From assembly GCA_947034885.2 (NCBI GenBank), contig OZ019759.1:10976501-11040500 (forward strand): DNA of 64,000 bases. Reading direction: 5' to 3'. This stretch comes from Thuidium tamariscinum (Eukaryota; Streptophyta; Bryopsida; Hypnales; Thuidiaceae). Positions 12,473-59,457 of the stretch are shown one piece after another. Under the pieces are notes generated by a model that saw only the letters and a program-made list of their open reading frames with translations, had not been told where the DNA came from and ran no database searches. The position numbers and the translations under genes are program-made. Position 1 is the first letter of the stretch. The number at the start of each line of letters is the position of its first letter.

Positions 12473-12483
12473 ATAGTTCTTAC

Positions 12484-13875: not shown

Positions 13876-13962
13876 TTTAGGTCGAACCAACCTAAACAGA
13901 CATGTTTACGGTATTATATTTAAAATGAAAACAGAGTCAATTTAGGTCAACGTGATCTAAAT
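13876..13962. repeat. Two palindromes in intron 2, copy B
   Basis: Diverged TTTAGGTCGAACCAACCTAA at about 13876-13896 and TTTAGGTCAACGTGATCTAA at about 13940-13962 lie in the 134-bp intron between exons 2 and 3. Copy C's equivalent intron has one, at 53232-53252. Retention at the same introns in both copies is notable given that the intron sequences otherwise do not align. Confidence 0.8.
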
Positions 13963-13970
13963 GTGGTTAC

Positions 13971-15409: not shown

Positions 15410-15443
15410 CTGCAAAAGAAGACAATGGAAGTGAGTTGTCTAG

Positions 15444-15837
15444 TTAGGTCGACTCGACCTAATTCAGTAGACCTTATCTAAGTCTGTATTTCACATACTT
15501 TTTCTCTCTAAGACATCTAAGTTAACAGTATATGATGGTTTAGGTCGACTCGACCTAACTGGCTTCAGCTTAATTTTCTTTCTGCCTTAAGACTGGTGTT
15601 TTTGAAGGAACTTAGTAGTGATCGTATTTTTAGACATTCTCTTAATAAGTACCCAACATCTACTGGTGATTTGGAATTGGCTTCTCTGATATATGCAATG
15701 TTGAATCATTTAGGTCAAATCGACCTAAATGAACCTTCTCTGATTATTATTTGTTAATTCATTGAATAATTTATTCGGAATTTCTTATCTATTTGTCTGC
15801 AATTTCAAGTTTGTTCGATTAGGTCGACCTGACCTAA
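15444..15837. repeat. Palindrome cluster in leader intron of copy B (TTAGGTCGACTCGACCTAA)
   Basis: Dyads lie at 15444-15462 and 15540-15558 (both perfect TTAGGTCGACTCGACCTAA), 15708-15730 and 15819-15837. Half-site-like words follow at about 15883-15915. All fall within about 500 bp upstream of the first coding exon, inside the predicted 5' leader intron (15410-17064). The core TCGA-C-TCGA is the one used by copies A and C, but the arms differ. Confidence 0.9.
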
Positions 15838-38869: not shown

Positions 38870-38966
38870 AAGGCCTTATTCGTTAAAATGAGACAAGTTG
38901 TGGTCTCATTTCTATTTTAAGGCAAAAAAAGATTTCATTAAATTGAGACTTTCATTAAATTGAGAC
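38870..38966. repeat. Left TIR and subterminal units of copy C
   Basis: The terminal repeat (38870-38896) contains ATTCGTTAAAATGAGAC (38878-38894). The same 17-bp word recurs twice in tandem as TTTCATTAAATTGAGAC at 38933-38949 and 38950-38966. This resembles subterminal transposase-binding repeats of other DNA transposons. Confidence 0.85.
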
Positions 38967-39435
38967 TCAAAAATGTCCCAAACATTATTTTATAATTGCT
39001 TTTTTATTATTATAAGTGGCATAATTCTTCATAAACATTCAAATTTAGTTTTTGAACTATTTTATTATTAAACAGAATAACTCAAATTATTTTAATCTTA
39101 CATGTTTTTTTAAATGAGAAGTTCTACATCATACAACATACATTTGAAGAGTACGATATGGTATTCAACTTCACAAATTTATGAACTACTATTGTATGCC
39201 AAAAAAAAATTTGCACAACTTTCTCTTGCAAATGACAAAACATAATTTCTATTAATAGAATTCAACCTCTTTTCTTCAGTCACAATATTTGTAATGAAAG
39301 GCATTTCTATATGTAGTACATTATATGTACTCAAAAATCATTTTCATAATTTGTAACTACAATACAAAAAGTAATCTATTCCTTCAAATTCAACAACAAA
39401 AACCTATAGAACTAACTATTACAACTACAAAATAC

Positions 39436-39708
39436 TCATTCTTCCTCCATAGACTCATTTGCCTCATCGTTGCGTTCTTCGATTCTTAAGGCCGTTACTG
39501 ATGCCTTAATGATGCCAATTTGTAAATTTGGAATCGACACTTTTGGTTTCTTAGTGTTCTCTCAGAAACGAGGCTTCCAAGCCGTTAAGATACAACCCGT
39601 GCTTGACCATGTTGGCTTGATCACAATGTCTTCACGCCACACATTCCCTTGTTTCGTGTCCCATCCCTCATACGTATCCATATTTATGTGTCGATTTGAA
39701 GCAGGAGT
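39436..39708 (-). pseudogene. Decayed C-terminal extension of the copy C transposase
   Basis: Beyond the stop at 39709 the minus strand still aligns with copy A's C-terminus: EGWDTKQGNVW against TGWDTKQGNVW, and IGIIKASV against VAIIKASV. It reaches a stop at about 39436. A second in-frame stop lies within it. So the annotated protein is about 90 residues shorter than the ancestral one. Confidence 0.75.
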
Positions 39709-42291
39709 CTAATACTGAATTCTGATCATATGCATATGTCCTGGATCTGGACTTGGAGCCGTAATAGCCCAAGCTAGCCAAAATGGTTTAGGATCACCAT
39801 CAGCAGGGCGCACTGCAATAAAAGAACCTTCGTGCGTATCAACGTTAACACGGAATGAAGGACGCGGTCGATCACGTCTACGTCCAACGAATGGCACATC
39901 TTCTGCGTCTTCCTCATGCAATATGCTGTCTCTTTGCATGCGATCAGTCTCATCAGGGGTAATCCTAGAAGCTGGCCAAAATCCATCGAGTAATGACTCA
40001 CGAAGCTGAAGAGGTGCATCTAGAGCCGTTCGAACGCCTTTCCAATAATCTTCCAAGGTGCCATTTTTTCGCCTGAATTCCCCTGTATAATCGTCAGCTG
40101 CCATCTTCTTCCAGTACGCAACAAAACCGTTCAAACCCTTCTTTATGTCTTGAAGGGCTTTCATCGGTTCAGGAACTAGAGGTCGAGGATTACCCGTTGG
40201 CACTTTGGGAAGGCCGTGTGCAGTCTCGGACCACAATCTAATTCCCTTGCCACCCTCGGGCAACCACTTATCATCTGTACACAAATTCTTGTATTCCATC
40301 AAAGGCCATCCATTTGAATCCTTGAAAAACTTAAATTGTTGGAATCTAGAATGACCCTCTAGGAAGTCCCCACCCATGCCGAGGTATCCATGTACGAACG
40401 CCTTGAAGTCAGAAACCTCTTCAATGAGATGAGGAATCACAGGGTGCTCTTCAGTATCCATAAAAGACTTCATAAGCCTAGGAATTGTTGGATAGTTATT
40501 TGTCTTCAATCTCGAGCTCCATCGACCAAAAAGAGCATCAATGTCTTCATGAGTGTGCCCCACAATGAGGAAGTTGATGTACACCTCCCGAAAAATGCCT
40601 TTGTATACAAGCATAGAGCAAAAACCAAAAACATAACGATTCTTGTTGTCCCCTGAACAATTGTCGAGTTGTAACATTAGAACAGGGGGAAGAGGTTTAG
40701 GTGGAAGTGGTTCATCCGGAGGTGGCAGAAGCGAGTCCAAGCAAGTTACCGCTCCATCTAAAACTGCCTTTGTAAGGGTGGATTGGTTATCTTCTACTGA
40801 AAATAACGTGCGCCATGAATTCTTTGGCGCTCCTTCCAAATCACGCAACAACCTTGCAATAGATCCAATGGTATGATTTGAATCAGTTGGATAAATGTCT
40901 AAACCATAGTGTGCATATCGCACATCACCATGCCCATGAGCAATCATACTTGTTACCGCTACAGGCATTTTCATGAATGATTCAATGACCTTGGTTTTGT
41001 GAGAGAAGTGTGGAGAAGCAGTCTTTGAATGATCCATCTTGTCATGAATAATGCACAACACTTTATCAGGCGATTTTACTGATTCGTCTCGATGTCCGTA
41101 GTACAGGTGCCTATGAGCCAATTGCCCCTGATTATGGGTTTTCTTCAATTCTATCCACTTAGATTTTGCCTCCTCACCTACACAAGCGCTTCTCAATTGA
41201 TTGTACTTGTCACACAATCCACATCTAGCAAATGTACCTCCACGCGCCTTTGCAGCGAACTCAAGAAATGAATTACGACGAATATTGCTCAAACCACTAG
41301 AAGAAATGGGTGGTAAATTGAAGCTTGCATTGGATTCATTGATTGTTTTCAACTGATCACTCCATCGAAACGAGGATGGGAGAACCATGGCAGTAACCTT
41401 CTCCCCGGACTCCAGTGTCCTCGTCTTGTGTAGCATCTTATCAGCATCCGCCTCAATTAACTTTCGAAGTGTGGCAGTTGCTTGAATAGTTTCCATGCAT
41501 GGCTTTTTGGATCCCAGATTTCCATGCACATCAGCTTCTTTCCCAGTTTTGGCTTTGTCTTTGTACCTATAGAATGTACACTTTGCTATTCCATGAATGA
41601 TCCACCACGCTGTAGGACAGACTTCCCTCTCTTTCAAGGTGATCCACTCTTTATCATTAACATCTTTATGGATTTGCTTATGCACCTCCAACAAAGTCTT
41701 GTTGCGAGCTTTGAAGTCACCACCACCATACAGCTCGGTCCGTATTGCTTGAACTTGTGCACGAGGAAAATGCTGCACACAAATCTTTCTATAATAAGTT
41801 TTTGTGGAAACTGCTGTGATCGATTCCATAGTCAAGAGAAGTTGTTTCTTGGGAGGGACCTCAGGATCAATTCTCACACGAGTTGTTTCGTACGATCGTA
41901 ACCCCTTTCGAGCTCTTTTGGGATTCATGGCCGTGTTGTATTTTTGTGTTTCATTATGGTCATACAAAGAAGCACCATCGTACATAAACACATTCCTAAT
42001 GTGCCAAGAACGTATAGACCACATATTCGACGAAGAAAAGAGCTCTTCATTCAAAGACTCCGCAATGTGTACAGCAACACGGTCATCGCCTAGAGATTTT
42101 CCATTCTGATCAAAGATCATGTTAGGGTCAATGTTCTGAATGACTCCCCTCGCAACGTCCACTCCGTCTTCATCTTGAAGAGTGACCGGCTGCATGACCC
42201 ATTTCGCACGAGGAAGTCCCTCGCATAAGCGAACATCAAGTGGAAGTGTTGCCACTGGATTCGCAAAATCCTCAGGGCCATGGTAATCCAT
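39709..42291 (-). CDS. Transposase-like protein of copy C, DUF7869-like (860 aa, C-terminally truncated)
   Basis: I chose the start at 42291 because an acceptor-like GTCTGTAG ends one base before it, as in copy A; the frame itself extends 11 codons further. Visible parts are: a possible helix-turn-helix around residues 230-250 (CPTAWWIIHGIAKCTFYRYK); a Cys cluster near 358 (CGLCD...AC); IIHDKMDHSKTASPHF near 417; LQLDNCSGDNKN near 544; and INFLIVGHTHEDIDALF near 580. The D..D..GHTHxDID pattern is shared by a widespread family of eukaryotic proteins annotated DUF7869. An RNase-H-like transposase fold is my inference. It is the only gene here likely to move the element, and it points outwards to the nearer terminus. 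Its stop is a TAG where copy A has TGG. Confidence 0.75.
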   Translation of the reverse strand: MDYHGPEDFANPVATLPLDVRLCEGLPRAKWVMQPVTLQDEDGVDVARGVIQNIDPNMIFDQNGKSLGDDRVAVHIAESLNEELFSSSNMWSIRSWHIRNVFMYDGASLYDHNETQKYNTAMNPKRARKGLRSYETTRVRIDPEVPPKKQLLLTMESITAVSTKTYYRKICVQHFPRAQVQAIRTELYGGGDFKARNKTLLEVHKQIHKDVNDKEWITLKEREVCPTAWWIIHGIAKCTFYRYKDKAKTGKEADVHGNLGSKKPCMETIQATATLRKLIEADADKMLHKTRTLESGEKVTAMVLPSSFRWSDQLKTINESNASFNLPPISSSGLSNIRRNSFLEFAAKARGGTFARCGLCDKYNQLRSACVGEEAKSKWIELKKTHNQGQLAHRHLYYGHRDESVKSPDKVLCIIHDKMDHSKTASPHFSHKTKVIESFMKMPVAVTSMIAHGHGDVRYAHYGLDIYPTDSNHTIGSIARLLRDLEGAPKNSWRTLFSVEDNQSTLTKAVLDGAVTCLDSLLPPPDEPLPPKPLPPVLMLQLDNCSGDNKNRYVFGFCSMLVYKGIFREVYINFLIVGHTHEDIDALFGRWSSRLKTNNYPTIPRLMKSFMDTEEHPVIPHLIEEVSDFKAFVHGYLGMGGDFLEGHSRFQQFKFFKDSNGWPLMEYKNLCTDDKWLPEGGKGIRLWSETAHGLPKVPTGNPRPLVPEPMKALQDIKKGLNGFVAYWKKMAADDYTGEFRRKNGTLEDYWKGVRTALDAPLQLRESLLDGFWPASRITPDETDRMQRDSILHEEDAEDVPFVGRRRDRPRPSFRVNVDTHEGSFIAVRPADGDPKPFWLAWAITAPSPDPGHMHMIRIQY

Positions 42292-42323
42292 TCTACAGAC
42301 AACAAGTTCCAAATGAAAAAACA

Positions 42324-42988
42324 TATCATCGACTCGATGATAAAGATTTTAAGTAAACACTCTTTGCGGTGGAAGATTCTATGATTGTAACATACTATCA
42401 TGTCTGATGATAGTCAATAAAGAAACATTGTACGGATTATGAAAACGTTAGTCTTAAGAAACTATATGAGCAAAGTAGGTCACGAGGGGAACCACTTCAT
42501 GACATATATGTAGTGGCAGTCCGTACTTATTGTCGACTCGAGGATAACCAGGAAAATGATGTGTCGACAAATATTTAAAAGTTAAAACATTTCTTCATAT
42601 CTTCGGTGAAATGGAACATTTAATATGCTGCGAGCCAGAAACTACACAGCAGGCAAAGACCCGATTATGAGGTAATCAATGCAAACATTGTCCTCCACCA
42701 ATGACCTGTCCCTGATATCGTCGAATCGAGGATATCATCCAAGACAAAATATTATTCTCTATGAGCAGAAACTTAAGAAACTATGTGCACAGTTCAATTA
42801 AATCCATTAGGACCTTCGCATGAACAAAAAAATTGACGCGTTCATTACGTACTATTGTCAACTCGACGATAATAAATATTTGTTTCAAATCAGTGTACTT
42901 GTGTATGTTCAGGTACGCAGGACAGAAGCTAAAGCCTGCAAGTACTCTATAACATTACAGTTTTGAATTATCTTCGAGTCGACAATAA
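42324..42988. repeat. Palindrome cluster in the transposase leader of copy C
   Basis: Six dyads lie at 42324-42342 (perfect TATCATCGACTCGATGATA), 42395-42413, 42527-42547, 42714-42736, 42853-42871 and 42968-42988. All are in the 700 bp upstream of the transposase start. Most keep the TCGA-N-TCGA core, and the arm base next to it varies (A, G, C or T), often with compensating change on the other arm. Confidence 0.9.
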
Positions 42989-42989
42989 G

Positions 42990-44300
42990 CTTTTATCTCC
43001 GTCTTTTCCGGCATGTTTTCCGGAATTCCAAAATGTCCCGAATGCATGTTCCACTTTACATAAACGACTACTACACAAAAAAGTGCACATGACATCGCAT
43101 GCTTCAATCATTCTGTGAACAAATGAGAACCTAACGACCCAAACAAAGAGATGATATGTAATACAAAGAATGTCACAGACTACACATAGGACTGCCATGC
43201 ATACTGCCTAGTACAATCTCTGTCGCCGACGAAGCATTGCAAACCCTACACTCTATGCACTGTATCACAACTAAGCCCCCTCATTACCTGCAGATTCGAA
43301 AGGAAACAATGTGCTGTGAGAAACCACGCACTGCGTGCTCTACAAGTTTAACGACTGCTACAGAAGCATCAAATATGTCACTCCAGAGAGAAACCACGCA
43401 AAGAACAAAGCGACGACACCGATGCCCTGCAAAATGACGTAGAAGAAAAACAATGACCACGGGCCCGATAGGGAAGACGCATCCAAGCAAAATACACTGT
43501 AGGCGGGAAATTCAGAGCGGGAAATTTAGAGTGCGAAAATCCGAAGTTCAAAAATCCCTCCACGTCCCAACACTACAGTGCACATGTGTCATGCGAGCAG
43601 ATTTAGGGCGCCTTCCGCAGCTTTTCGGGGTAACTTTACTAATTGCGCTTATCAGTCTAAAGGAGATGCTTCCCTACATGGACAGGTACAGTACTACCTC
43701 TGCCATTCCAGCACTTTTGCCCCGCATTTAGGAGATTCGTAGCACTTTTCACCGTTGGCTTCTCCGGCAGTATTTTCCCCCCATTCCAATTGCGTAAATA
43801 TTCTGGGTCCATGTTTAGAAATCCAAAATCTGCACCGCCCGGGTTTAGGCTTTTTGCGGGCGAGGGTCTATCTTCCTACGGGTTAAGACATTTAGAATAG
43901 TTATGGGTTTTAATGGATTTAAGGTTTGGATGTCTAACAAAAATTAGAAGCTGAACAAAGATGAAATTCAAAATGAGTATTTTTAAAGAGTTCATGCTTC
44001 CAAGTTTAGTCCCTCCGATCCTACTAAACCCTAAATCCTAAACCCCAAACCATAACATATCATTGTGCATCCTAAACCCTAAATCTAAACTTTGAAGTCT
44101 AAGAATGCTAAACTTTAGAGCAGCAACATTAATCCTACCTTCTGAAGTAATAAGGAGTAACGAATGGCCATAAACCATAAAACACAAACATCCAAACCCT
44201 AAGCCAGAAAAATTTACTTATAAGCCTTGAATCCTAAATTTTTTCTATAAAGCTCAATAAATGTAATCTTTGAACCACCCAAATTTTTCAAAACTTCAAA
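42990..44300. other. Central spacer of copy C, possible transposase leader exon
   Basis: No coding region is supported. The GC-richer part (about 43200-43870), with CCGCCCGGG and similar words, could hold the promoter and a noncoding first exon for the minus-strand transposase, by symmetry with the accessory gene. From 43900 it is AT-rich with telomere-like AAACCCTAAA words. Confidence 0.35.
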
Positions 44301-47300
44301 ATTAGACTAGTATGCTAAATTGTTTGTCAAATCATGTATGAAATGAAGTATTGCTAAATTTTTTTTCTTTTAAAAAAAACCCTTCATGGACAAATGTTCA
44401 GAGTTTAGCTGCCAATAAGTATTAAATTAAAAAAAGGTACTAAGTAGATCGAATATTCACCCACTTTACTCTCCAATAATCAATCTCAAGTATAATTAGT
44501 TTGTTCAGGAAATCCCATTGAATTCCAAAAAATACTGAGTCACTCTAAACATTGTCAAATCCCATTGAATTCATGTTTCTAAATGAATATGAACAATAGC
44601 CAAATTAAAACAAAATATTTCATAAGTTACATAAACCTTCACAATTATACTGTCTAAAAGATTTAGGCTAAATCAGTTCAGTTCCTTGCAAAAACCGCAT
44701 TGCATTCTAAAGAAGACGTAGTCCTACCATTGTTTTTATAAATTTCATTCTACAAATGTTTCAAAATTTATATGAATAATACCCCAAGAAAAATGTAGAA
44801 GTAGGAATACACCTCCAAATTCATTTTCCACAGTCGATTTGCAAGGACATTTTACTTTCTTCCGAAAATGTCATTGAATTGTATTGAACATCCCATTAGT
44901 GCAGGCACTGTGAACTTCGATTTCATGGATGCTTCAGAATTGATATGGGAAACGGCCCAAAATTTTGTATTTACACTACAATACATCCACAATTATTCTC
45001 ATGTAGGGTCAATTTGCTAAATCGTATTGTTGTGTTCGAAAAATGTCATTCAATTCCTTTGAAGACATTGTGTAGGCATTGTGAAGTTCAAATTCATGGA
45101 TGTTTCAAAATTATCGTCAAACATAGAGAACCAAAATATTGTAGAAGTTCAAAAGTAACTATACAATTGTTTTGTAAGCTCATTTTCGTAAAATCATATA
45201 CATTTGTCCCGAAATGTCATTCAATTCCATAAAAATGAAGTCCACACATTGAAAGTTAACTTCTATTTTGATGGATGTTTTGAAATTCAGATTCAAAATA
45301 GGAAAAAAGAAATGTACAAGTTGGAATGTACCTCCACTACTATAATTTGTAGTCCATTCACTCAACCATATGCTTTCATTGTTAGAAAAACGTCATTGAA
45401 TTCTTTAAAAGACCCCGTGTAGGCATTGTCAAGTTCAAACTCATGCATGTTTCAAAATCCACGTAGAACATGGCGAACCAAAAATTTGTAGACTTTGGAA
45501 TATACCTACAAAATTAGACTGCAAACTTCATTTGGTAAAATTGTTTAATTTTTTCAAAACTGTCATTGAATGCCATAAAAAAAAAAGTCCACACTTTGAA
45601 TGCAAACTTCCATTTCTGTGGATGTTTCCAAATTGACGTCGGAAATGGCTAAAAAAAAATCTAGAAGTTGGAATATATGTCCTCAACTATATTCTATGGT
45701 CAATTTCTTGAATCAAATTGTTTTGTTCCAAAAAATTCATTGAATTATTCAAAAGACCCGCTACATCCATTGTCGAGTTTAAATATATGCATGTTTCAAA
45801 ACTCACGTCCAACATGGCGAAGAAAGAAATTGGACAAGTTGGAATATACCTACAAAATTAGAGTGTAAGTTCAATTTGGAGAATCATGTACATTTGTTCC
45901 ACAATTGTCATTGAATTCTTTAAAAAATCAAGTGCAGACATTGAGTGTGAACCACCATTTTTAGGCATGCTTCCAATTTTGACGTTGGAAATGGCCAAAA
46001 AAAATATGTAGAAGTTGGAATATATGTCCTCAACTATATTCTATGGTCAATTTCTTGAATCATATTGTTTTGTTCCAAAAATTCCATTGAATTATTTAAA
46101 AGACCCGCTACAGCCATTGTCGAGTTTAAATTCATGCATGTTTCAAAACTCACGTCCAACATGGCGAAGAAAGAAATTATACGAGTTGGAATATACCTCT
46201 AAAATTAGAGTGTAAGTTCAATTTGGAGAATCATGTACATTTGTTCCACAATTATCATTGAATTCTTTAAAAAATCAAGTGCAGACATTGAGTGTGAACC
46301 ACCATTTTTAGGCATGCTTCCAATTTTGACGTTGGAAATGGCCAAAAAAAATATGTAGAAGTTGGAATATATGTCCTCAACTATATTCTATGGTCAATTT
46401 CTTGAATCATATTGTTTTGTTCCAAAAATTCCATTGAATTATTTAAAAGACCCGCTACAGCCATTGTCGGGTTAAAATTCATGCATGTTTCAAAACTCAC
46501 GTCCAACATGACGAAGAAAGAAATTATACGAGTTGGAATATACCTCTAAAATTAGAGTGTAAGTTCAATTTGGAGAATCATGTACATTTGTTCCACAAAT
46601 GTCATTGAATTCTTTAAAAAATCAAGTGCAGACATTGAGTGTGAACCACCATTTTTAGGCATGCTTCCAATTTTGACGTTGGAAATGGCCAAAAAAAATA
46701 TGTAGAAGTTGGAATATACATCCTCAACTATATTCTATGGTCAATTTCTTGAATCATATTGTTTTGTTGCAAAAAATTCATTGAATTATTCAAAAGACCT
46801 GCTACAGCCATTATCGGGTTTAAATTCATGCATGTTTCAAAACTCACGTCCAACATGGCGAAGAAAGAAATTGGACAAGTTGGAATATACCTACAAAATT
46901 AGAGTGTAAGTTCAATTTGGAGAATCATGTACATTTGTTCCACAAATGTCATTGAATTCTTTAAAAAATCAAGTGCAGACATTGAGTGTGAACCACCATT
47001 TTTAGGCATGCTTCCAATTTTGACGTTGGAAATGGCCAAAAAAAATATGTAGAAGTTGGAATATACGTCCTCAACTATATTCTATGGTCAATTTCTTGAA
47101 TCATATTGTTTTGTTGCAAAAAATTCATTGAATTATTCAAAAGACCTGCTACAGCCATTGTCGGGTTTAAATTCATGCATGTTTCAAAACTCACGTCCAA
47201 CATGGCGAAGAAAGAAATTGGACAAGTTGGAGTATACCTACAAAATTAGAGTGTAAGTTCAATTTGGAGAATCATGTACATTTGTTCCACAAATGTCATT

Positions 47301-48450
47301 GAATTCTTTAAAAAATCAAGTGCAGACATTGAGTGTGAACCACCATTTTTAGGCATGCTTCCAATTTTGACATTGGAAATGGCCAAAAATTAGATTGTAA
47401 GTTCAATTTGGAGAATCATGTACATTTGTTCCACAAATGTCATTGAATTCTTTAAAAAATCAAGTGCAGACATTGAGTGTGAACCACCATTTTTAGGCAT
47501 GCTTCCAATTTTGACGTTGGAAATGGCCAAAAAAAATATGTAGAAGTTGGAATATACATCCTCAACTATATTCTATGGTCAATTTCTTGAATCATATTGT
47601 TTTGTTGCAAAAAATTCATTGAATTATTCAAAAGACCTGCTACAGCCATTATCGGGTTTAAATTCATGCATGTTTCAAAACTCACGTCCAACATGGCGAA
47701 ACACAAAATTGGACAAGTTGGATTATACCTCTAAAATTAGATTATAAGGTCAATTTGGAGAGTCATATACATTTGTTCCACTAATGTCATTGAATTTCAA
47801 CAAAGACCCAACGAAATGAATTAGTCTAGAAAATCTGTTGTGAAGTTAGTTGAATTGTATGGATGTTTCAAAATTGACATTGAAAACGGTCCACTAAAAA
47901 AGGATACGTATGATTGTACCTATAAAATAATATTTCAAGCACAATTTCCAATCATATTAATGTGTTCAAAAAAAGTCATTGCATTCCATAAAAGTTGAGA
48001 GAGTCCACACAATCATTCTGAAGTTCAATTATCATAGATGTTTCAAAATTCTAATAAAATAAGGCCAAAAAGAAGATGTACAAGTTGAAATATACCTTGA
48101 AAACTACATTATAACCACAATTTCCAAAATCATTTCGGTTCATTGCACAAATCTCATTGAATTTCCAGAGAGATGTAGTCCAACCATTGGGAACTTCAGT
48201 TTCACAAATTTTTTAAAAGTCACGTCAAAGAAGGTTGAAGAGAAATCTAGAATTCAGAATAAACCTCCACAACTACATTTTATGTTTGATATGCATAATC
48301 GTATTTGTTTGTTGGAAAAATTGCATTGAATTGTGTAATTCAAGTCATTGTCATTGTGAAGTTCTATTTTGGAGATGCTTCCAATTTCACATCAAATGGA
48401 TTCAAATGGAATCAAATTCAACACAATTGACCCTCTATCTAATACAAAAA
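44300..48450. repeat. Satellite-like array of copy C, ~174-bp monomers with 347-bp higher-order unit
   Basis: A homogeneous core begins at 45665 and repeats exactly every 347 bp (45665, 46012, 46359, 46706, 47053). It is then disturbed by an extra 144-bp partial unit before 47544. Each 347-bp unit is a dimer of two related halves, each starting near GTTGGAATATA and containing CATTGAATT. Diverged single monomers extend on both sides. The 66-codon frames in each unit are by-products. The array has the size and dimer logic of plant satellites but lies inside a transposon. Confidence 0.9.
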
Positions 48451-50170: not shown

Positions 50171-50496
50171 GGCTGCATTTAGCCTTGTTCAGTCGCTGGG
50201 TTTCTGCATTGTTTGTGTCTTCTTCTTCAAGTTCAGTGTTCTCTTCGTCGTGTGTGTTCTTCTTTTGATTGTGTTTTCTTGGGAGTGTACTGTTGAGGGA
50301 GGTGCGTCCGTGAGGGCGGAGAGTGTGTTGCGTGCGCTCGTGGTGAGCCTGCCACCTTCGGCCATTCTTCGGAGCGCACGCGTTGCTGTGGAGGGAGAGG
50401 GTTTACGGTGGCGGAGCTTGCGCATGTGTCAAGGGAGCTGCGACCGCACAGCTTGCGGGACTTGGAGGTTCGATTTCGGCAGCGTTCTCTCTTGCG
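50170..50496 (+). promoter_or_regulatory. Noncoding leader exon of accessory gene, copy C
   Basis: A GC-rich stretch ends in a strong donor, CTTGCG-GTAAGT, at 50496/50497. The next acceptor, TATATTGCAG, is at 51773, six bases before the start codon. This gives a 1.28-kb leader intron. Copy B has the same layout. The 5' end is a guess. Confidence 0.5.
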
Positions 50497-51058
50497 GTAA
50501 GTGCTTCCACCTCTCTCCTGATTTTGCGGGTTTGGGGTGCATGCAATTGGCTTGCAAGTTGAGGGTGCTGTGGCTTCATCTTTGACGTGCCCTCACTACT
50601 TTTGCTTCAGGGTTTGGAGTATGTTCATCGTAATTTTTTGTGTAGGCGTTTTGTGAGTGCCCCGTCCGTGAGTGCCCCGTCGTGAAGTTTTCTGATGTGG
50701 TGCATGCTTTCTCAGAGGAGACTTACATGTTATGTGTGTAATTTAGGGTATACAATCAGGGTTTTAGGAGGGAGTTTTCAATGCATGAAAGTCCATGGGA
50801 ATTAAGATTTTCTGGTTTTCAGACTTTGAGGGTAGCATTGAAGATCTGTGAGGCACATTGGGGTTTAGGGTTTAGGTTCCAATTGACAGAAAGTAGCACC
50901 GTGAACCTCCTAATACAATTAGGGTTTAGGTTTCAGAGCAGATCAATTCCCTGGTGATGACCAAAATTAGGGTTTTGGGTTTTCAAGACGCCCGAATGCA
51001 CCCCAAAAGGACGATTTTGAACAGAGTTTTTATTAATTTCCGACAGCTAGTATTGGAT

Positions 51059-51739
51059 GTTATCCTCGAATCGAGGATAACCACCGAGTAGTCTTTCAGA
51101 AACTGTTCTGGAAGACCTAAATTCGGTCCATGTGCTTCAAAAAACAAAGAACCCTCCTAAAACTAACGTTTCTTAGTTACTCCGTAACGTTTTACTTCAT
51201 CCAATCTGGAAAAAGAGGCTATCCTCGAATCAAGGATAACCAGGACGTAGTAATAGAATTCTCTACATAGACCTCATTGTAACCAAAACAATGTTCATTA
51301 GTCGATATTGATTCCTAGATTCTGTAGCATTATCTTCGGATCGACGATAGCTACAGTCCGCTGTGCAACGCACTATTATTCAATAGTTCGAAAATAGGAT
51401 CCTTATCCAACACTTAACCGGAGAAGAACTCAATCGAAATGCTACCAATGGTATCAGTTTTAACGAGGGACCCATTGAAACTTACCAACCCTTATCATCG
51501 AGTCGATGATAACAATCTCAACCCTGCGAAGCCATACGCACATCTGAGACCTTAAGATGGATATGATTAGTTTTCTGACCTTGAAATATAGTTGTTATCC
51601 GCGACCCATCGACTCTACACACTACTAATCCATAAGGAATTAAACCGTCCGTATTAATGATTATGGAAAACACAATAATCAACAAGTACCAGTAGAACAC
51701 GTTCTGAACGTTCTGAACGTTATAGTCGAGTCGACGATA
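51059..51739. repeat. Palindrome cluster in the accessory-gene leader intron, copy C
   Basis: Five dyads lie at 51059-51081 (perfect over 23 bp), 51219-51240, 51330-51350, 51492-51512 (perfect) and 51720-51739. The consensus is TATCNTCGANTCGANGATA. They occupy the last 720 bp of the leader intron, the same relative position as in copy B. Confidence 0.95.
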
Positions 51740-51773
51740 CAATCACTAACAGTCGTTGGCCTATATATTGCAG

Positions 51774-53210
51774 CTCGATATGATGGCGAGTGAAGACAAC
51801 TACGATTACTCGAAGAACTCCGCTCACCTTAAGGAATTTATAAATCCCATAAATGATGGGCCTTTCATATCTGAAATGGAAGAAAGCTACGGGCAGCTTT
51901 GGGAGTTCAAAGACCACGTAGCTTCCTGGACATTCGGTGTGAGCAGGTGGAAGGATTACGTATACCTGCGTTACCGTATTCACGGTACTGAGAATTACCT
52001 GCCCTGGAATATACATGAGAAGGTGTCAGTGGTAGAAGATCACCAACACAGTTACGTTGTCATCGTCCTCCGAGATGTCGACGACACAGGCAGGGAAAGA
52101 GGTCACTGCCATTCACTCGTCATAAACGTGCACGCCCGGTGCGCAAAGTTCGACCTCGAGACTTTAATGGACTCAATGGACGGGTCGCCCATGGAGTCCC
52201 TAAATGATGATTTTCGAAGAATGGGATACGTGCCATGGAAAGACGGGTCGGCGAGGTCCATTGCACAGAGGCTCCGTTTGATTTGGCAGTCTCTGGATAG
52301 GTACGCCTACAAAAATAAAGAGACGAGGCCTATAGTTGGAGGAATTGCCACAGGTGGATCTAGAGGTCCCGAAGTTCCACAAGCTCGAGCACCTGCATCT
52401 GCGTCCTTAGGGAGAAGCCAACCAACGCATTTGCAACCAAGGTCGCAACCCCAGAAACGAAGCGCAACAGCATCGGAACCAGGGGAATCCAGCAGGAAGA
52501 GGCGGAAGTCTACTGCATAGGCTTTGGCTTCAGCGGCTGCGTCTGGGTCAGCGTCAGGACTGACAAATGTGTCCGCATCTGCAGAGAAAGACGAAACTGC
52601 GATGAAAGACCACAAGAAGTTTGCCATAATCCGGCGTGACTTCTGGGCACAACATAAGGACTATTTTCTGCTCGACATGGAGATAGTTTCTGTCCCGATT
52701 TCGCAATGTATGATTGCTGATGATCGATATATCATTCGTACGTTGCAGAAAGATATTGTGGAAGCTGTAAAGAATCAGCTTATACAGCTCAGTGACATCA
52801 AGCAACGACAGAAGGTTTGCCTTACTCCCGTCAACGAACACAACAATCTCCTTGACAGAAAACCTGAGCGATGGGACGAAATCAAGCGGGGCAAGTTTAT
52901 GATCATCAACGGGCAACACAGTATTACAGCCTCCGAGCAACTTCAAGACGTCCTCCCTCATGGAGAGAAGCGCAGAACTGAGCTGCAAGAGTGGGATGCG
53001 TTTATTGTGTGGACTCTGGATGCCGCGAAGCTGAGGAATATTTCACGGTTCTACAACTGTACGAACCATCTGAATCTTGTTCAGCCCACTTGGGGGAACC
53101 AGGTAATCAGCTGCCGCAAGATTTGGCTTGCTTGCGATCGGCCGATGGACATCGAATCCGAGGGTGAAACGCGGCAGAACGGTGCCATTTTCGATTGTAC
53201 CAAATTTACG
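51774..53210 (+). pseudogene. Exon 2 of accessory gene, copy C: NGQHS (ParB/DGQHR-like?) domain; one in-frame TAG
   Basis: The start is at 51780 (or 51783), just after the acceptor. The first 246 codons end in a basic Ser/Pro-rich tail (RKRRKSTA). A TAG at 52518 interrupts, and the same frame continues to the donor ACG-GTACAT at 53211. The second part carries RRDFWAQHKDYFLLDM, QRQKVCLTPVN, KRGKFMIINGQHSITASEQL (52908-52922 encodes NGQHS) and LQEWDAFIVW. Copy B keeps this block. By eye it recalls the (D/N)GxHR core of ParB/sulfiredoxin and DGQHR proteins, some of which bind DNA; this is unproven. The exon joins in phase to exon 3. Confidence 0.7.
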
Positions 53211-53231
53211 GTACATGTTATTGTGTGAGGT

Positions 53232-53252
53232 TTATCGTCGGGTCGATGATAA
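53232..53252. repeat. Palindrome in intron 2, copy C
   Basis: TATCGTCGGGTCGATGATA with its flanking T and A lies in the 194-bp intron (53211-53404). It corresponds to the two palindromes of copy B's intron 2. Confidence 0.85.
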
Positions 53253-53404
53253 CTCTTGTAGCTTGTGGAACTAGAGTATGCTAGCTTTACCTTGTTTTGT
53301 GTGCTCTCTCTTCCTTGTAGTGAAGACAAAGTCGTCGTCCAGTATTACGAATATATACTGAACTGTGTCTGTTAAATTGATCTGACTTTATCTGATGTGC
53401 ACAG

Positions 53405-54730
53405 AAATTTGCGGATGCCGTTATCCAGCGGTTTCAAAACATCAATCCTGTGAGAGATGGTGCCTCAATCAAAGGGCCCACTGATCTGAAAAATGAAATT
53501 CAAATAATAACTCTGGCGGATGACGCATGGGATTTCTGGGAGCGCTTTCTCACGAAGCATGCGGATGGCGATCTAATTGATCCCGTGACCTTAAACCGTT
53601 ACAAGGTTATAAAGGGATACAAAGCGAAGACCGCCTCCCTCAATAGGGAGTTCTTCAGGCATTGTGGGCGATTTACAGACGTGGACTACAAAGTCCTTGC
53701 ACAGCATTTGTTGGCCGAAACACCAGGGCGGAAAGCTGTGTACCCAAAAGTAACGGTACCGAAGAACAGAATCATGGTGCCTAATAGTCTCTCCCATGGA
53801 GAATGGGTAGAGCGACGGAAGCGGAAGAAAATCGTCCTTCAAGACTTAATGGCCATAAATCCAGATCTCAATTTTTTTGAAGTCGGAGGAGAGGTTTCCA
53901 ATAGAACGTGGAAAGCTTGGAAGGCTAGACATCACTTCTCTTCCGGGACGTGGGACTTCCTGTTGTCGTACCCGAAGGCGGGATATTTTGCTCTTCGTCT
54001 GAAGAATGAAGCATGGTTGAAGCGGGCTAAGGACTTGGAGAAGGCGTATCCGGAGATCTTCTACATGTTCTGCTGCTTCATGAAGTTGAAGTACCAACTG
54101 CCGGATCCGTTGGGTGGAGTTCAAACGTGTGGCATTGATGTCGCGGCAAGGGCCCTTGTGAAGAGCTCACAGTACCGGTACGTTCCCCGGAATGTGAATC
54201 TAGCTGTGCTGGACGCAAGAGAGATTCCAAGCGTGGATCCCTTGGAAAAGGTGGCGGAATTGGATCCGTTCTTGACTTTCCTTCGGGAAAAGCTTGACCC
54301 AAAAATGACAGAGCCCAACGTGTGGCTCTTCATTTTGCGGGGAAGAGATGATGTGAAGGCGGCGATGAAGTTTGTGACGTACAGATTTAAAGAGTACGAT
54401 TACCTGAAGGCCCTTTACGTCCCAAGCAAGGGGGAGATGATGGGGACCAGCACCAGTCGAACGATAGCTCCCGACGTACCACTGTTTTTCCTCTTCAAGA
54501 GAGCGAGCGCGTTTGCGACGAAGGTCCGAGGATACGTGAAGGCTGAGTACGACACACCAGCTTCATGCATTTACTATACGGATGCCTCAAGGAATACGGA
54601 GGCGAAGTGGAGGATACAACCATCAGAACTCAGAATGGAGTTCTACCTGGAGATCCTCCAAAATTTTGCAGTACCTGACGAAAATGTCCTCGGCCTTTAC
54701 ACAGGCCCTAAATTCATGTTGGCATCAAAG
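53405..54730 (+). CDS. Exon 3 of accessory gene, copy C: conserved unknown domain, 442 codons
   Basis: The exon is bounded by the acceptor TGTGCACAG and the donor CAAAG-GTATGT, open throughout and phase 0 at both ends. It begins KFADAVIQRFQNINP, matching copy B's EFTKAMNIRFAML. Conserved blocks are KNEIQIIT, DDAWDFWE, LIDPVTL, AQHLL, YPKVTV, EWVERRKRKKIV and LRMEFYLEIL. No known domain was recognised. WVERRKRKK is strongly basic. The intact frame here, against stops in copy B, shows C is the better preserved copy. Confidence 0.7.
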
Positions 54731-54753
54731 GTATGTATCTTACTTCTGAGCAC

Positions 54754-54854
54754 TTATCATCGAGTCGACGATAACTAGGTGTGTTATGTCTTGTTCTTGT
54801 CATACGAGTTTTCTGGGCTTATTTCTCTTTTTCATATTGTCGAGTCGACGATAT
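54754..54854. repeat. Two palindromes in intron 3, copy C
   Basis: Palindromes at 54754-54774 and 54834-54854 (ATATTGTCGAGTCGACGATA) lie in the 174-bp intron between exons 3 and 4. This matches two palindromes in copy B's intron 3. Confidence 0.9.
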
Positions 54855-54904
54855 CAGGGACTGTTTATGTGTGTGTAATTAACTCCTCACCCAAACTCTT
54901 GCAG

Positions 54905-56575
54905 ATGTTTGGGGTGCATTTTTACGGATTCAGTGATCATGATGACGCGAAGTCCTTACTCAAGATCTCATACTTGGCGAAGAAAATGGACAAGAACGAT
55001 TACATGTTCTCCAACTCGCCCTACACCGTGACATACATTCGCCCCATTTCTGAAGATGCAGCGGAAGTAAACTCCCCTGCACCTGCAGACTTCAACTTCA
55101 TGTCTCCAGTTGACGTGCCGGAACAAAGGCAGGACAGGGGGCAGTCCAGCGGCCAACAAGTTAGCCATGATGCAGGGGTGGAGGGCATCGATGAGTATGG
55201 AACAAATACGTTCCAAGTGCATTCGTGGATGGCCACTCTGGCTTTCTTACCTGATGTACCAATTCGGACTAAGGGTACTCAAGGCGACCCCATGGACACA
55301 CAGGGCGGCCCAAGCGAATCTAGGCGTCATTCGGAGCCTCGGAATCAGCCTCAGGAGTCTCAGACCGTACTGCCTCCGTTTCAACCGGTGAACTTGGACA
55401 ACGAGTTCGACGACAACACGGAATTCGACCAATTCCTTCGTCAAGATAGAGTTCAGTGTCGAAGGAGAGGTTCGCGAAGTGTTCTCGACGAGGACGTGGA
55501 GATGCAGCCTCTGGAGCCAGAGGCAGCTCCACCGATGGAGGTGGAGAATGTGGTTGACACCAGGCCTCCAACGGTGGAGGCAGAACAAGGTGGGGGAGAA
55601 AACGCGGTTCAAATGGAGGACCCCATTCTGAACGCGGAGGAGGAGACCACAGAAGAAGTGGCAAGACCCCCACCCGTGATCCACGAGCTGAGCAATGACT
55701 CCTCCGATGAGGAAGACCTCAACAAGCCCCACGAGTCGGACGACGACGACGAAGTCATGGATGCGCCTCCCAAGGTGAAGGAGATGAAGCCCCTTCTTGC
55801 ACCAGATGGCACAGTCGTCAAAGCACGTGATGGCAAAGTCATCAAGATCGAGAAGGGGTACTGGAAGGAACAGGAGGACCTCAGGGCGAGGCGGAAGGCG
55901 AGGAGGGACGAGGCAGCCCAGACGAAGAAAGCCCTGGCAGAAGCAAAGGCTCAGAGCGTTGCTTCGCAGCAGAAGATGGAGAAGTTGGAGGCAAGGCTGT
56001 CCCAAATTACGACCATTCTGGAGTCCCAGAATATGTTCTCCCAACTAGCTCCGTTCTCTCAACAGTCTGGTGCAAGTCAGGAGGCGCCAGCGGGTCCATC
56101 TGTCCTCCCGACCCCTAGTCAGGTCGCGCAGCAGGAGAGCCAGATCCCTTATCGTCGACTCGACGATAACGTGGACACCGTGGCCATAGCAGAGGTGCAA
56201 GCAACGTCCTCCATTCTGCTCTCTGACCCACCCAGGCACGTCTCTCCGGGTCCTGCAGCATTTGAGGTCGTCATCCCAAAGACGCAGGATCTCGCATCTC
56301 TGGACTCCGAAGTCCCTACTGCGGAGGAGTATCGTCAACTCGACGATAGATCTGAGGCAGAGGCGAGTCCGTCGCGTGTGGTGGCACCAAGAAATGACAA
56401 TATTGAAGTGCCACCATGTTCCATGTCGGAACAGGATGTGGTGCAGCACGAGACAGAATCCCACAGACAGGAAGATCTCGTGGATTATGAGGATGACGAG
56501 ATTGTGGGTGCTGGAGATGAAGTGGCCGACGACGCGACTCAGGTACTCGATTCGAATCCCTACAAGTTTGATTGA
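54905..56575 (+). CDS. Exon 4 of accessory gene, copy C: acidic region with coiled coil, 556 codons
   Basis: The exon starts after the acceptor CTCTTGCAG with MFGVHFYGFSDHDDAKS, in phase with exon 3. It then becomes Pro/Glu/Gln-rich, with an acidic run (SSDEEDLNKPHESDDDDE), a charged helix likely to form a coiled coil (DLRARRKARRDEAAQTKKALAEAK through LEARLSQITTILES), and an acidic end (DEVADDATQVLDSNPYKFD). Two family palindromes lie inside the coding sequence, at 56149-56169 (perfect) and 56330-56348, encoding RRLDD and RQLDD. It can end at 56575 with an AATAAA at 56826. Alternatively, the donor-like CAG-GTACTC at 56542 would splice in phase to the FCP1-like exon at 57061. Confidence 0.65.
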   Translation: MFGVHFYGFSDHDDAKSLLKISYLAKKMDKNDYMFSNSPYTVTYIRPISEDAAEVNSPAPADFNFMSPVDVPEQRQDRGQSSGQQVSHDAGVEGIDEYGTNTFQVHSWMATLAFLPDVPIRTKGTQGDPMDTQGGPSESRRHSEPRNQPQESQTVLPPFQPVNLDNEFDDNTEFDQFLRQDRVQCRRRGSRSVLDEDVEMQPLEPEAAPPMEVENVVDTRPPTVEAEQGGGENAVQMEDPILNAEEETTEEVARPPPVIHELSNDSSDEEDLNKPHESDDDDEVMDAPPKVKEMKPLLAPDGTVVKARDGKVIKIEKGYWKEQEDLRARRKARRDEAAQTKKALAEAKAQSVASQQKMEKLEARLSQITTILESQNMFSQLAPFSQQSGASQEAPAGPSVLPTPSQVAQQESQIPYRRLDDNVDTVAIAEVQATSSILLSDPPRHVSPGPAAFEVVIPKTQDLASLDSEVPTAEEYRQLDDRSEAEASPSRVVAPRNDNIEVPPCSMSEQDVVQHETESHRQEDLVDYEDDEIVGAGDEVADDATQVLDSNPYKFD

Positions 56576-56770
56576 GTCTGAACAACTTGAGGTCCTTTCT
56601 ATCTAATCAAAGGGAAATGGAAAATTGTAATTGTGTTGGACTCTCACTTCTGTTCATGATTCATGACAAGGTGGTGTCGCCTCATCTTGAATCCGTGGCG
56701 CTGACGGAGAATCCGTCTGTGGCCGAAGTTTCTATAGTATAGTGAAGCTTAGTCGTGACTGAGTGTACAG

Positions 56771-56831
56771 TTTTGTCGACTCGACGAAAAGAAAATTTTG
56801 TAATATGTACTTTATAACATGTGCAAATAAA
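56771..56831 (+). terminator. Palindrome and AATAAA polyadenylation signal after exon 4
   Basis: The dyad TTTTGTCGACTCGACGAAAA (56771-56790) precedes AATAAA (56826-56831), about 250 bp after the exon 4 stop. It supports a short transcript ending here, with the FCP1-like part reached only by splicing past it or from its own promoter. Confidence 0.45.
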
Positions 56832-57060
56832 GTATTCGGATGTTCTTAAAAAATCAAGTGTGGACTAGTCTAATTGTACATTTTCTTGATGCCCAGCTCC
56901 CAAAAAATGTTAGCGTGCTCCGCCCGATCCCAATGAAAGCTTTTCCTAACGGGGGACACCAGTCGATAAGTGGATTTCAATGCAAGTCTCCACTTCCTGG
57001 CTCTCCCGATTCTGCATTTCAACAGGTAACTCCATCTCATTGTTGTTTTGCTTTCGTCAG

Positions 57061-57888
57061 GTAGAGACGGAGGAGCGGAGAGAGGTCGTGTCGAGGAACG
57101 TGCCACCGTTAGTCCCTCCACCGCGAGGAAAATGGCTGAACATTGTCTTGGACTTGAACGGGGTGCTCTGCCAAAGCATGCAGAAGTGCTACGGGGACAA
57201 ACTGAAGTCCCACAACGTCGAAGACAATGTTTTGTGCCATAGGAACCCGACCAGCATCGGGTCCAAGTTCGTGTTCGCCCGGCAGAATGTCGGTGAGTTC
57301 TTGCGGCAGCTGTGGGAGATCGCGAACAGGGTGGTCGTGTGGACCACCATGCTCAAGAAGAATGCCGAACCCATCGCGGCGCACTTGTTCCATGGCTGCA
57401 AGGCCCCCTACGATATACTAGGGCAGGAGTAGTGCACCAAGATAGAAATGGCTCCGGGAAAATTCTTTCACCATGGGGGGAAAAAACTCTTCATGAAAGT
57501 CTTGGAGGACAGCCTCTTCCCCATCAACGATGGGAACAAGCCGTTCTACATGCACGAAACCATTCTCATTGACGATACTCCCGCGAAGGATATTTGCAAT
57601 GCGAATGGCAACTCCATTTTCCTAGAGTCTTGGAGTCACGCCAAGCGTAGGGACGACGTGCTCATGGGAGAGCTCCTCCCATGGTTGCGGCGTCTGCATG
57701 AGCATTGCCCTGAAGGCGAACTCATGGAGTACGTGGAGGACAACCGGATCGGCTTAGAGCCGCTCAATAACGATAACCCGTACTTCAAAGAAGTGGTCAA
57801 GGGCATGAAAGAGTCCGCGAAGGTCATGGGGGCGCGCTACGCCGTTTGTACCGGGAAAATAATCTATCCACGAAATCGTAAAAAATAG
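57061..57888 (+). pseudogene. FCP1-like phosphatase domain of accessory gene, copy C (one in-frame TAG)
   Basis: The acceptor TTTCGTCAG is followed by VETEERREVV, in phase with the optional donor at 56542. HAD/FCP1 motifs are WLNIVLDLNGVLC (motif I, DxN in place of DxD), RVVVWTTM (II) and ILIDDTPAKDI (III). A TAG at 57430 separates motifs II and III; copy B has Ser there (LGQNSC). Classical FCP1-like proteins act on phosphorylated RNA polymerase II. Whether the Asn variant is active is unknown. The association of such a domain with a transposon is unusual. Collinear conservation with copy B shows it is a fixed part of the element rather than a chance capture. Confidence 0.75.
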
Positions 57889-58133
57889 GCATGGCATAGG
57901 ACTCCAGTGACAAATTGTAGGACTACGTGTTGTGTGAAACTTGTGTACCATATATTATTTTGTAAATACTACTTTCGATTTCGGCTCATAACGTCTCTAA
58001 GTCTTTGTTTGTTTTCTTAGAGCAAGGATTCTTGTTGTCTGCCTTGCACTTCCGAAATTGTATTCATTGCATGTCTGCTTCTATAGTCTGCATGTGCATT
58101 TCTCTGCGTGAAAATGTCTTCTTCTTGCACCAG

Positions 58134-59018
58134 GTAGACTTACAGGATCCCTCTCGCAAGCCGACGAAAAAACAGCGACTCACGAGGAGTCTGCTTTCGG
58201 GGTCCGAGAAACCCCGTTCCGATGGGGGGGACTCTTGTGGAGGGAGTGGATGGTCGGCTCCCTCATCCAAACCGTATTTGCTGCGGTCTGCCGCGGACGC
58301 GGCCTCCGCGGCCATAGACTTCTCCAAGGGAGATGTCGAGGACGGCGTCGTCAACAGCCCGCCAAGCCACGGATGGTCCAAGTCGCGCACTTGCTCTCCG
58401 TCTCCACTGAAGCTGACATCGTCGACTCGAGGGGGGTCCATCTCTCCCACTTCGCGCGCGCAAGGTGGGACCAGCAGGAAGTTGGAGCTACTCGACGAGA
58501 ATGAAGGCACTCATCCTCGGGTCGACGATGTCGTGGCAGGCGCGTCGGATGCGCTACATCTCCAGGTCGCTGCTCCGACCTTTTCGGCCTTCGTTGCGAA
58601 CCACCGTCAGATCCCCCATGATCCAACGCTTACTCCTCGCCCTTTACCTCGACTCGAAGATAATCGACCACGACGTACCATGTCCGCGGGGGCTCGCCGG
58701 CTGCCCTCGTCGAACAGCCTCTTTCGTCAGAGGGTTCTCAGAGATCATCAGAGCTCGATGAGCTCCAAATCTGTTGGACACCTTGACATGTACAAAGACA
58801 ATGTAATTACATCAAAATTGAAACCGCCCATTGGAGGATCAAAATCACTTTCTGCTTCGGATCATGCGACAAGCAAGAGCACACAAAAGCGGAAGCATAA
58901 TATTTCGAGCAACGTGAAGTCCTGGGATAACCAGGACGGTAAGAGTGGGCCTCCGTATCCTTCTCGACGCGAGGATATCTTGAGAGCACTCGCGAAAAGC
59001 TCAAGTCATGGAAAATAG
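58134..59018 (+). CDS. Ser/Pro-rich tail exon of accessory gene, copy C
   Basis: The exon follows the acceptor TTGCACCAG and begins VDLQDPSRKPTKKQRLTRS, a basic, nuclear-signal-like start. It then becomes Ser/Pro/Arg-rich and probably disordered for about 290 residues, ending SSSHGK. It matches copy B at EDGVVNSPPS and CSPSPLK. Degenerate palindromes fall inside the coding sequence near 58417, 58511-58530, 58648-58667 and 58956-58979. It is the last exon before the right terminus. Whether it belongs to the same transcript as the FCP1-like exon is not settled. Confidence 0.6.
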   Translation, partial: VDLQDPSRKPTKKQRLTRSLLSGSEKPRSDGGDSCGGSGWSAPSSKPYLLRSAADAASAAIDFSKGDVEDGVVNSPPSHGWSKSRTCSPSPLKLTSSTRGGSISPTSRAQGGTSRKLELLDENEGTHPRVDDVVAGASDALHLQVAAPTFSAFVANHRQIPHDPTLTPRPLPRLEDNRPRRTMSAGARRLPSSNSLFRQRVLRDHQSSMSSKSVGHLDMYKDNVITSKLKPPIGGSKSLSASDHATSKSTQKRKHNISSNVKSWDNQDGKSGPPYPSRREDILRALAKSSSHGK

Positions 59019-59409
59019 CAAATGAGGAAAGGGACGTGGTACATTTTTCGAAGCCCTCGAAGCTTCTGAGTTCTCATTACTATAAATAGAAAGGCCATAT
59101 ATAGAACTCATACACTCAAAGTAGTAAAGAGTCACATGTACAGTGAGGCTCTTCATTTGTTCATTTTTGAAGATAAAATAAATGCAGACCGCACCTTGTG
59201 TATTGAGGCTTCATCTCATTCTCTATATTGTAAAAAGATGGCCCTTGTTTCCGACTAAGTTATTGGCTGTTCTGTTGTGCCTTCTTCATGTAAACTTTCA
59301 CTTGTTCACCCTAAATCCTTCAACACTCCAATTAATCTTGAATGCTTGATTATTATCGTAGAATTCAACAACTCTTCCATCAATGGAGCTTTTGCGCCCT
59401 ATTTCAAAA

Positions 59410-59453
59410 GTCTCATAATGGTCATTTTGTCTCAATATAATGAATAAGGCCTT
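59410..59453. repeat. Right TIR of copy C
   Basis: GTCTCAATATAATGAAT (59429-59445) followed by AAGGCCTT mirrors the left end with three or four mismatches over about 27 bp. A second GTCTCATAATGG word at 59410 may be a degenerate subterminal unit. Confidence 0.85.
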
Positions 59454-59457
59454 TTAC
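59454..59457. repeat. Target-site duplication TTAC, right
   Basis: TTAC lies directly after the right terminus. Removing the element and one copy would restore CCACTTACCTTGAA as the target. Confidence 0.75.

Follow-up and report, generated by a model that had tools for sequence, protein, structure and literature searches.

Boundaries of the main element

The window, meaning the whole 64-kb stretch of DNA analysed, contains a main element at 38870-59453, with a length of 20,584 bp (about 20.6 kb) and ends of the terminal inverted repeat (TIR) type. Its boundaries and genes are given below.

38866..38869, no strand: left target-site duplication TTAC, read in the sequence
38870..38966, plus strand: left terminal inverted repeat, starting with AAGGCCTTATTC, with three exact subterminal copies of TTCNTTAAANTGAGAC
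39460..42291, minus strand: transposase-like gene (DUF7869), with an open frame at 39709-42348 and homology to copy A that reaches 39460 across two stops
44670..48387, no strand: AT-rich tandem array between the divergent genes, with a 347-bp period
51780..59018, plus strand: accessory gene, starting at ATG 51780, with at least one in-frame stop
52521-53228, plus strand: NGQHS domain of the accessory gene, preceded by an N-terminal domain
53396-54778, plus strand: middle domain of the accessory gene, of a type not recognised
54.9-56.6k, plus strand: acidic region of the accessory gene
56950-57888, plus strand: NIF phosphatase-like domain of the accessory gene, followed by a Ser/Pro tail
59429..59453, minus strand: right terminal inverted repeat
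59454..59457, no strand: right target-site duplication TTAC, read in the sequence

Both ends carry an exact copy of the 12-mer AAGGCCTTATTC, at 38870-38881 on the plus strand and at 59442-59453 on the minus strand (12/12 bases identical). Allowing one mismatch, three occurrences of the 12-mer are present in the window where 0.26 would be expected; the additional one is the end of copy A (4720-4731), one of the two partial copies described below. The similarity between the ends continues past the 12-mer via ..TTA.A.TGAGACAA, to about 27 bp. The 4-bp duplication TTAC/TTAC was seen for one insertion only, that of the main element. With its matched ends and direct target duplication, the main element is a TIR cut-and-paste DNA transposon.

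An element of about 20.6 kb with inverted ends and a TTAC duplication, and with two genes pointing to opposite ends, had been proposed in the preliminary description. Both points are borne out by the exact 12-mers at the two ends, the TTAC flanks, and the strands of the transposase-like gene (minus) and the accessory gene (plus).

In terms of subterminal repeats, TTCNTTAAANTGAGAC with up to 3 mismatches was found 18 times, with 12.1 expected, which is near chance. The five occurrences with 0-1 mismatch are all terminal: the main element has three on the left and one on the right, and copy A has one at its end.

Transposase-like gene

The left gene matches the Pfam family DUF7869 with an E-value of 8.6e-45, in agreement with the DUF7869-type motifs reported earlier, and this is its sole Pfam match at E up to 1. 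DUF7869 is a family without a name of its own in Pfam, and the word was not found in the open-licence PMC literature. A putative catalytic triad is formed by D436, D562 and the acidic residues of GHTHEDID (597-604); by eye, it is common to the main element, copy A and two relatives on MAG contigs. The AlphaFold model of the transposase is too poor to use (mean pLDDT 37), and an RNase H fold was not confirmed by it.

Those two relatives are DUF7869 matches on short contigs labelled as Bacteroidetes MAGs (L001, 3085-3438; L002, 6042-6287), with one match per genome, and the family is present in 0 of 14 control genomes. Both contigs are probably stray eukaryotic sequences. Relatives of the transposase were found neither in IMG/VR nor in phages, and it has no match in the PDB sequence search.

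An assignment to KDZ or CACTA was dropped, since the transposase has no Pfam match other than DUF7869 with E up to 1. KDZ was also set aside on the length of the duplication, since KDZ target duplications are longer than the 4 bp seen here.

Accessory gene

The NIF (FCP1/SCP-like) profile scores above its curated Pfam cut-off in the main element and in copy B (25.3 bits, E 1.4e-5; cut-off 21.8), so the earlier claim of a multi-domain accessory gene with an FCP1-like domain stands. The catalytic motif of NIF/FCP1-SCP proteins is DxDx(T/V). In the two copies it reads DLNG and DPNG, with the first Asp kept and Asn in place of the second acid. With Asn at this position in both copies, the accessory NIF domain may not be an active phosphatase, and may serve for binding instead of dephosphorylation.

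The NGQHS box resembles the GERR box of ParB by eye. No ParB-named match to the accessory protein was found in Pfam (E up to 10), or in NCBIfam, PHROGs and PADLOC (E up to 1). An hhalign comparison with one bacterial ParB gave a probability of 0.19% and a score of 14.8, with 9 of 30 shuffles scoring higher. As neither the profile searches nor hhalign lend support, the ParB label stays a lead. The AlphaFold model of the accessory protein, from two sequences, has a mean pLDDT of 32 and is too poor to use.

Further searches found no relatives of the NGQHS domain in IMG/VR, no match of the NIF profile in the PDB sequence search, and DndB (PF14072) in 0 of the 2 MAG genomes. In the accessory pieces searched there is no methyltransferase match, and no Pfam match to the DUF1985/DUF287 domains. 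Three PDB matches of the NGQHS profile (E 1 to 1.9) were disregarded. The weak matches to phrog_918 (E 0.039), phrog_4000 (E 0.29), PADLOC Csn2 (E 0.005) and NCBIfam blaP (E 0.013) were judged to be chance, as were the Pfam matches below cut-off in the accessory pieces.

Partial copies and decay

Two partial copies, A and B, accompany the main element in the window.

1..4731, plus strand: copy A, partial, running off the window, with its right terminus at 4731
1317-4163, plus strand: copy A transposase gene, broken
8416..15837, minus strand: copy B, partial, with a degenerate terminus at about 8416 and extending to at least 15837
15408-8778, minus strand: copy B accessory gene

The transposases of the main element and copy A have 56% amino acid identity over 884 aligned positions (56-61% across comparisons), and the nucleotides are 66% identical over 2.5 kb. 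The left part of copy A, including its accessory gene, falls outside the window. As for copy B, homology to it was found for five of the seven accessory pieces of the main element, at 15477-8778 on the minus strand (E-values of 1e-26, 5e-45, 1.5e-15, 5e-9 and 3e-7), with identities of 26-42% when both search directions are counted; the other two pieces gave no match to this copy. Within the window, neither a transposase of copy B nor its right border was found.

The terminus of copy B, at about 8416, is identical to the right end at 18 of 25 bases, counted by eye. Allowing up to 3 mismatches, the terminal 12-mer gives 58 matches against 56 expected, which is chance level and does not distinguish the copy B terminus. 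The distance from terminus to accessory gene is approximately 360 bp in copy B and 435 bp in the main element. Two further copies with matching termini and genes had been described previously: the genes match in both, and so does the terminus of copy A, while that of copy B is degenerate.

The main element and copies A and B are all decayed, with stops inside homologous coding sequence. The copy A transposase, aligned to the main element, crosses two stops at the C-terminal end of the main gene, where the 879-aa main frame ends early relative to copy A. In the opposite direction, the main transposase aligned to copy A crosses six stops. One stop is crossed by the NIF-domain piece of copy B when aligned to the main element, and one by the next piece of the main element when aligned to copy B. 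An extra apparent stop in the main element, between the frames 51750-52520 and 52521-53228, may lie in an intron.

The region of the copy B accessory gene also contains, at 10667-10765, a perfect inverted repeat whose 44-bp arms are 11 bp apart.

Two types of palindromes

The present analysis adds arrays of palindromes, which are absent from the earlier sequence-only reading. The main type, TATCNTCGANTCGANGATA, has 21 bases and the structure TTATCN-TCGANTCGA-NGATAA, and is found in the main element and copy A. The B type, TTAGGTCGANTCGACCTAA, has the structure TTTAGG-TCGANTCGA-CCTAAA and is found in copy B, where a palindrome scan detected it. The 9-base core TCGANTCGA is common to both types and the outer arms differ (NGATAA versus CCTAAA).

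With at most 3 mismatches, the main type occurs 28 times in the window against 0.25 expected, and none of 100 shuffles reaches this number. The sites are split between copy A (10) and the main element (18), with none in copy B. Three of the ten sites in copy A are second copies within a 233-bp tandem repeat (446-913), which leaves 25 distinct main-type sites. Under the same threshold, the B type has 10 sites against 0.04 expected, all ten in copy B. Exact TCGANTCGA cores number 21 in the window, with 0.86 expected from base composition, and all 21 are inside the three elements.

Both palindrome types are confined, within this window, to the transposon copies. In the 38.7 kb of the window that belong neither to copy A nor to the main element, nothing comes closer to the main type than 5 mismatches. 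For the B type, the nearest sequence outside 8416-17000 is at 56771, with 4 mismatches, and is itself a main-type site. Raising the limit to 4 mismatches adds three main-type sites, 3994 in copy A and 58417 and 58959 in the main element, of which 3994 and 58959 are less than 0.75 kb from an element end; for the B type it adds one, 13942, in copy B. In IMG/VR, the exact main palindrome is found in 8 stretches, with one site each and no arrays.

A search of the open-licence PMC literature found no paper on palindromic motifs together with accessory proteins in giant Sola transposons. As far as that literature shows, palindrome arrays with co-divergent arms are a new feature.

Placement of the palindromes

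The sites are grouped around the genes, as listed here.

42324..42987: five main-type palindromes upstream of the main transposase gene
51061..51739: five main-type palindromes upstream of the main accessory gene, the last one 40 nt before ATG 51780
53233..58662: eight main-type palindromes inside the main accessory gene
367..1275: ten main-type palindromes upstream of the copy A transposase gene
9491..15837: ten B-type palindromes, four upstream of the copy B accessory gene (15444-15837) and six in the gene

Inside the main accessory gene, the site at 53233 is in one intron, those at 54755 and 54835 are in another, and that at 56771 lies between open frames. The remaining four of the eight (56150, 56330, 58512 and 58644) fall in open frames.

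Upstream sites reach about 0.7-0.95 kb before the genes. The distance from palindrome to in-frame ATG is 32 nt for the main transposase, 41 nt for the copy A transposase, 40 nt for the main accessory gene and 35 nt for the copy B accessory gene. In the case of the main transposase it counts to the second in-frame ATG, the nearer one touching the palindrome. At the average density of the main element, a given ATG would have a site in the 60 nt before it with a chance of about 0.05, but sites are denser near promoters.

Palindromes occupy two homologous introns of the accessory gene in the main element as well as in copy B, and their arms differ between the two (splice sites read by eye). One of these introns separates the NGQHS domain from the middle domain, the other the middle domain from the acidic region. 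When the upstream regions are compared, alignments extend over 13-38 bp, mostly the palindromes themselves, and little else aligns. Positions that are kept while the arms change throughout are as co-divergence of a protein and its sites predicts.

With up to 3 mismatches, the terminal 3.4 kb on the left and 0.79 kb on the right are free of palindromes. A role as the sites where the transposase binds the ends was rejected on this ground. Such a role is unlikely, given this absence and the presence of all five TTCNTTAAANTGAGAC repeats with 0-1 mismatch at the ends.

Probable relationship to Sola transposons

The main element is probably of the Sola type. This classification rests on the transposase motifs, the 4-bp duplication, the size and the gene layout, each compared with published descriptions. 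Sola elements are described as having a DDD transposase and a 4-bp target-site duplication, with a length of mostly 2-9 kb and some over 15 kb, and as being present in Physcomitrella (PMC10741241); their features are also tabulated in PMC9033089, and PMC3627910 reports a Sola2 transposase 888 aa long, with duplications of 4 bp. At 20.6 kb, the main element falls in the published size range, among those over 15 kb.

The closest element is Sola1-1_Ec32 of Ectocarpus, with 21.5 kb and, on the opposite strand, an accessory gene whose product is reported to be ParB-like and to include a methyltransferase (PMC12477816). The authors of that work suggest that such ParB-like accessory proteins bind the transposon that encodes them and modify it (PMC12477816). 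The two elements are alike in their size of about 21 kb and in having the transposase and accessory genes on opposite strands. They may also be alike in the accessory protein, reported there as ParB-like and here with an NGQHS box that resembles ParB by eye. On the contrary, the Ectocarpus protein is described with a DNA methyltransferase, while the one here has a NIF/FCP1-SCP-like domain and, in the pieces searched, no methyltransferase match. Moreover, the available excerpts of that description (PMC12477816) name neither palindrome arrays nor binding sites, which are the subject here.

No known superfamily was thought, in the preliminary description, to have this combination of genes, size and 4-bp duplication. 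That view is not supported, as the published Sola features fit, including the 21.5-kb Sola1 with its accessory gene. We regard it as rather doubtful that the element belongs to a separate unnamed superfamily, with nothing beyond a DDD/E fold and the 4-bp duplication in common with Sola. Such a reading could appeal to DUF7869, which has no name in Pfam and does not appear as a word in the open-licence PMC literature, and to a Sola link drawn from published descriptions. However, the published Sola features fit, namely a DDD transposase (here a candidate triad), a 4-bp duplication, a length above 15 kb in some elements and, for a host that is probably a plant, occurrence in Physcomitrella; so does the 21.5-kb Sola1 with its opposite-strand accessory gene.

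Proposed role of the palindromes

Our main reading, to which we give a probability of about 0.55, is that of a giant Sola-like cut-and-paste transposon whose palindromes would be binding sites of an element-encoded protein, likely the accessory protein, that marks the element as self and controls its transcription. The DUF7869 protein would cut at the ends, via the TTCNTTAAANTGAGAC repeats beside the termini. The palindromes would be dimeric candidate sites of an element-encoded DNA-binding protein, and the accessory protein, as the most likely one, would mark the element and control its transcription while bound at both promoters and in the introns. The choice of the accessory protein draws on its NGQHS domain, similar to the ParB box by eye, and on the Ectocarpus Sola1 accessory protein, reported as ParB-like. 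It might counter host silencing, in the manner of VANC, or its FCP1/SCP-like domain might serve for local autoregulation, or it might do both. The divergence between families would correspond to a joint change in the specificity of the protein and in its sites.

We infer this division of labour, in which the transposase acts on the ends and the accessory protein on the palindromes, because sites with up to 3 mismatches avoid the ends and TTCNTTAAANTGAGAC marks them. With the accessory gene of copy A outside the window and no transposase found for copy B, the sequence alone cannot tell which protein fits the sites.

It is unlikely, in our view, that the palindromes are bound by the transposase, whole or as a fragment, acting as a repressor of its own promoter and of the accessory gene. 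The copy A sites are directly upstream of its transposase gene, and the main element and copy A have the same motif type together with transposases that are 56-61% identical, which speaks for it. Nevertheless, the termini, on which the transposase has to act, have no sites with up to 3 mismatches nearby, and a separate motif, TTCNTTAAANTGAGAC, clusters at the ends. Sites also occur in introns of the accessory gene, and in copy B, whose transposase was not found in the window, they surround the accessory gene.

Could the palindromes work as RNA hairpins or cruciforms in 5' leaders and introns, acting in splicing, translation or small RNA, with no DNA-binding protein involved? Many sites are in presumed leader or intron positions, and, for three of the four sites closest to an ATG, folding is stronger than in most shuffles (z of -2.6, -3.3 and -2.6; +0.5 for the fourth). 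The free arm position is complementary in 15 of 28 sites, against 7.7 expected (p 0.003), or in 13 of 25 when tandem copies are removed (p 0.01). The outermost pair is complementary in 27 of 28 sites against 25.1 expected, a slight excess (p 0.036). The excess complementarity at the free and outermost positions leaves room for a hairpin role. Still, TCGANTCGA is conserved as a sequence across both types, beyond mere pairing; the free position is unpaired in 13 of 28 sites; four conserved pairs are broken in 4-7 of the 28 sites with no sign of compensation; and the upstream sites extend as far as 0.7-0.95 kb before the genes. Overall, we hold this explanation to be improbable. A host transcription factor as the binding protein, with the arm differences reflecting two recruited host factors, is very improbable in our estimate. 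The position near promoters would suit it, but the best matches have 5 mismatches for the main type, outside copy A and the main element, and 4 for the B type, outside 8416-17000 and at a main-type site (one window being a small sample of the host), and a shared core with arms changed throughout, together with intronic sites, fits an element-borne protein better.

Returning to the accessory protein as the most likely binding protein, similar arrangements are known in other systems. ParB-parS and Noc-NBS have palindromic sites in arrays, with a conserved core and family-specific bases. The sites here are likewise arrays with a core and variable bases, and a short box (strand, [GN]-x-[QE], helix) is similar by eye. 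In contrast to those systems, the setting here is a eukaryotic transposon, and the profile and hhalign tests give no support for homology.

VANDAL transposons are Mutator-like elements. In Arabidopsis, they encode VANC, which binds family-specific motifs in introns and upstream regions (PMC5735166; also PMC10398659). Arrays of these motifs grow through tandem repeats, and related families do not have the same motifs (PMC5735166). The arrays described here are alike in being family-specific, in their position in introns and upstream regions, in growth by tandem duplication and in differing between related families. They are unlike in two respects: the DUF1985/DUF287 domains described for VANC have no Pfam match in our accessory pieces, and the VANC motifs are given as 8-9 bases long and non-palindromic, whereas the candidate motif here is a 21-bp palindrome.

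A more specific version of the main reading is tentative, and we lean against it as a whole. The accessory protein would bind the palindrome arrays and spread over or mark the element, its fused FCP1/SCP-like domain would counteract silencing at RNA polymerase II, and the specificities of protein and sites would switch together. If true, VANC would have a second counterpart, of independent origin, and the algal ParB-like accessory proteins would be linked to binding sites. Plant transposons would then have acquired sequence-specific anti-silencing or autoregulation on more than one occasion, protein and sites shifting their specificity together, as is the case for ParB and parS. The palindromes offer concrete candidate sites, in two naturally diverged versions, for the published idea that accessory proteins bind their own transposon, which makes that idea testable.

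Other repeats and neighbours in the window

A second AT-rich tandem array, with periods of 352/176 bp, is present at 18012-20625, near copy B. It has short segments in common with the array at 44670-48387, such as one of 25 bp at 92%; these are on the same strand, in contrast with the opposite orientation of copy B and the main element. The two arrays may represent a host satellite present in both elements, or else one array that the elements share in inverted form. A near-palindrome, CATAGAACATTCATGTTCTATGA, is repeated about every 176 bp at 19117-20549 and is unrelated to the TCGANTCGA type.

Remains of a CACTA/En-Spm-type transposase are found at 33492-35986 on the minus strand, with matches to Transposase_21 (E 9.6e-50) and DUF4218 (E 1.5e-29). 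Neighbours of this kind (CACTA tnp2/DUF4218) point to a host that is probably a plant. Lastly, the regions 61229-61947 and 63246-63590 contain diverged repeat pairs, inverted and direct, of about 67% identity.
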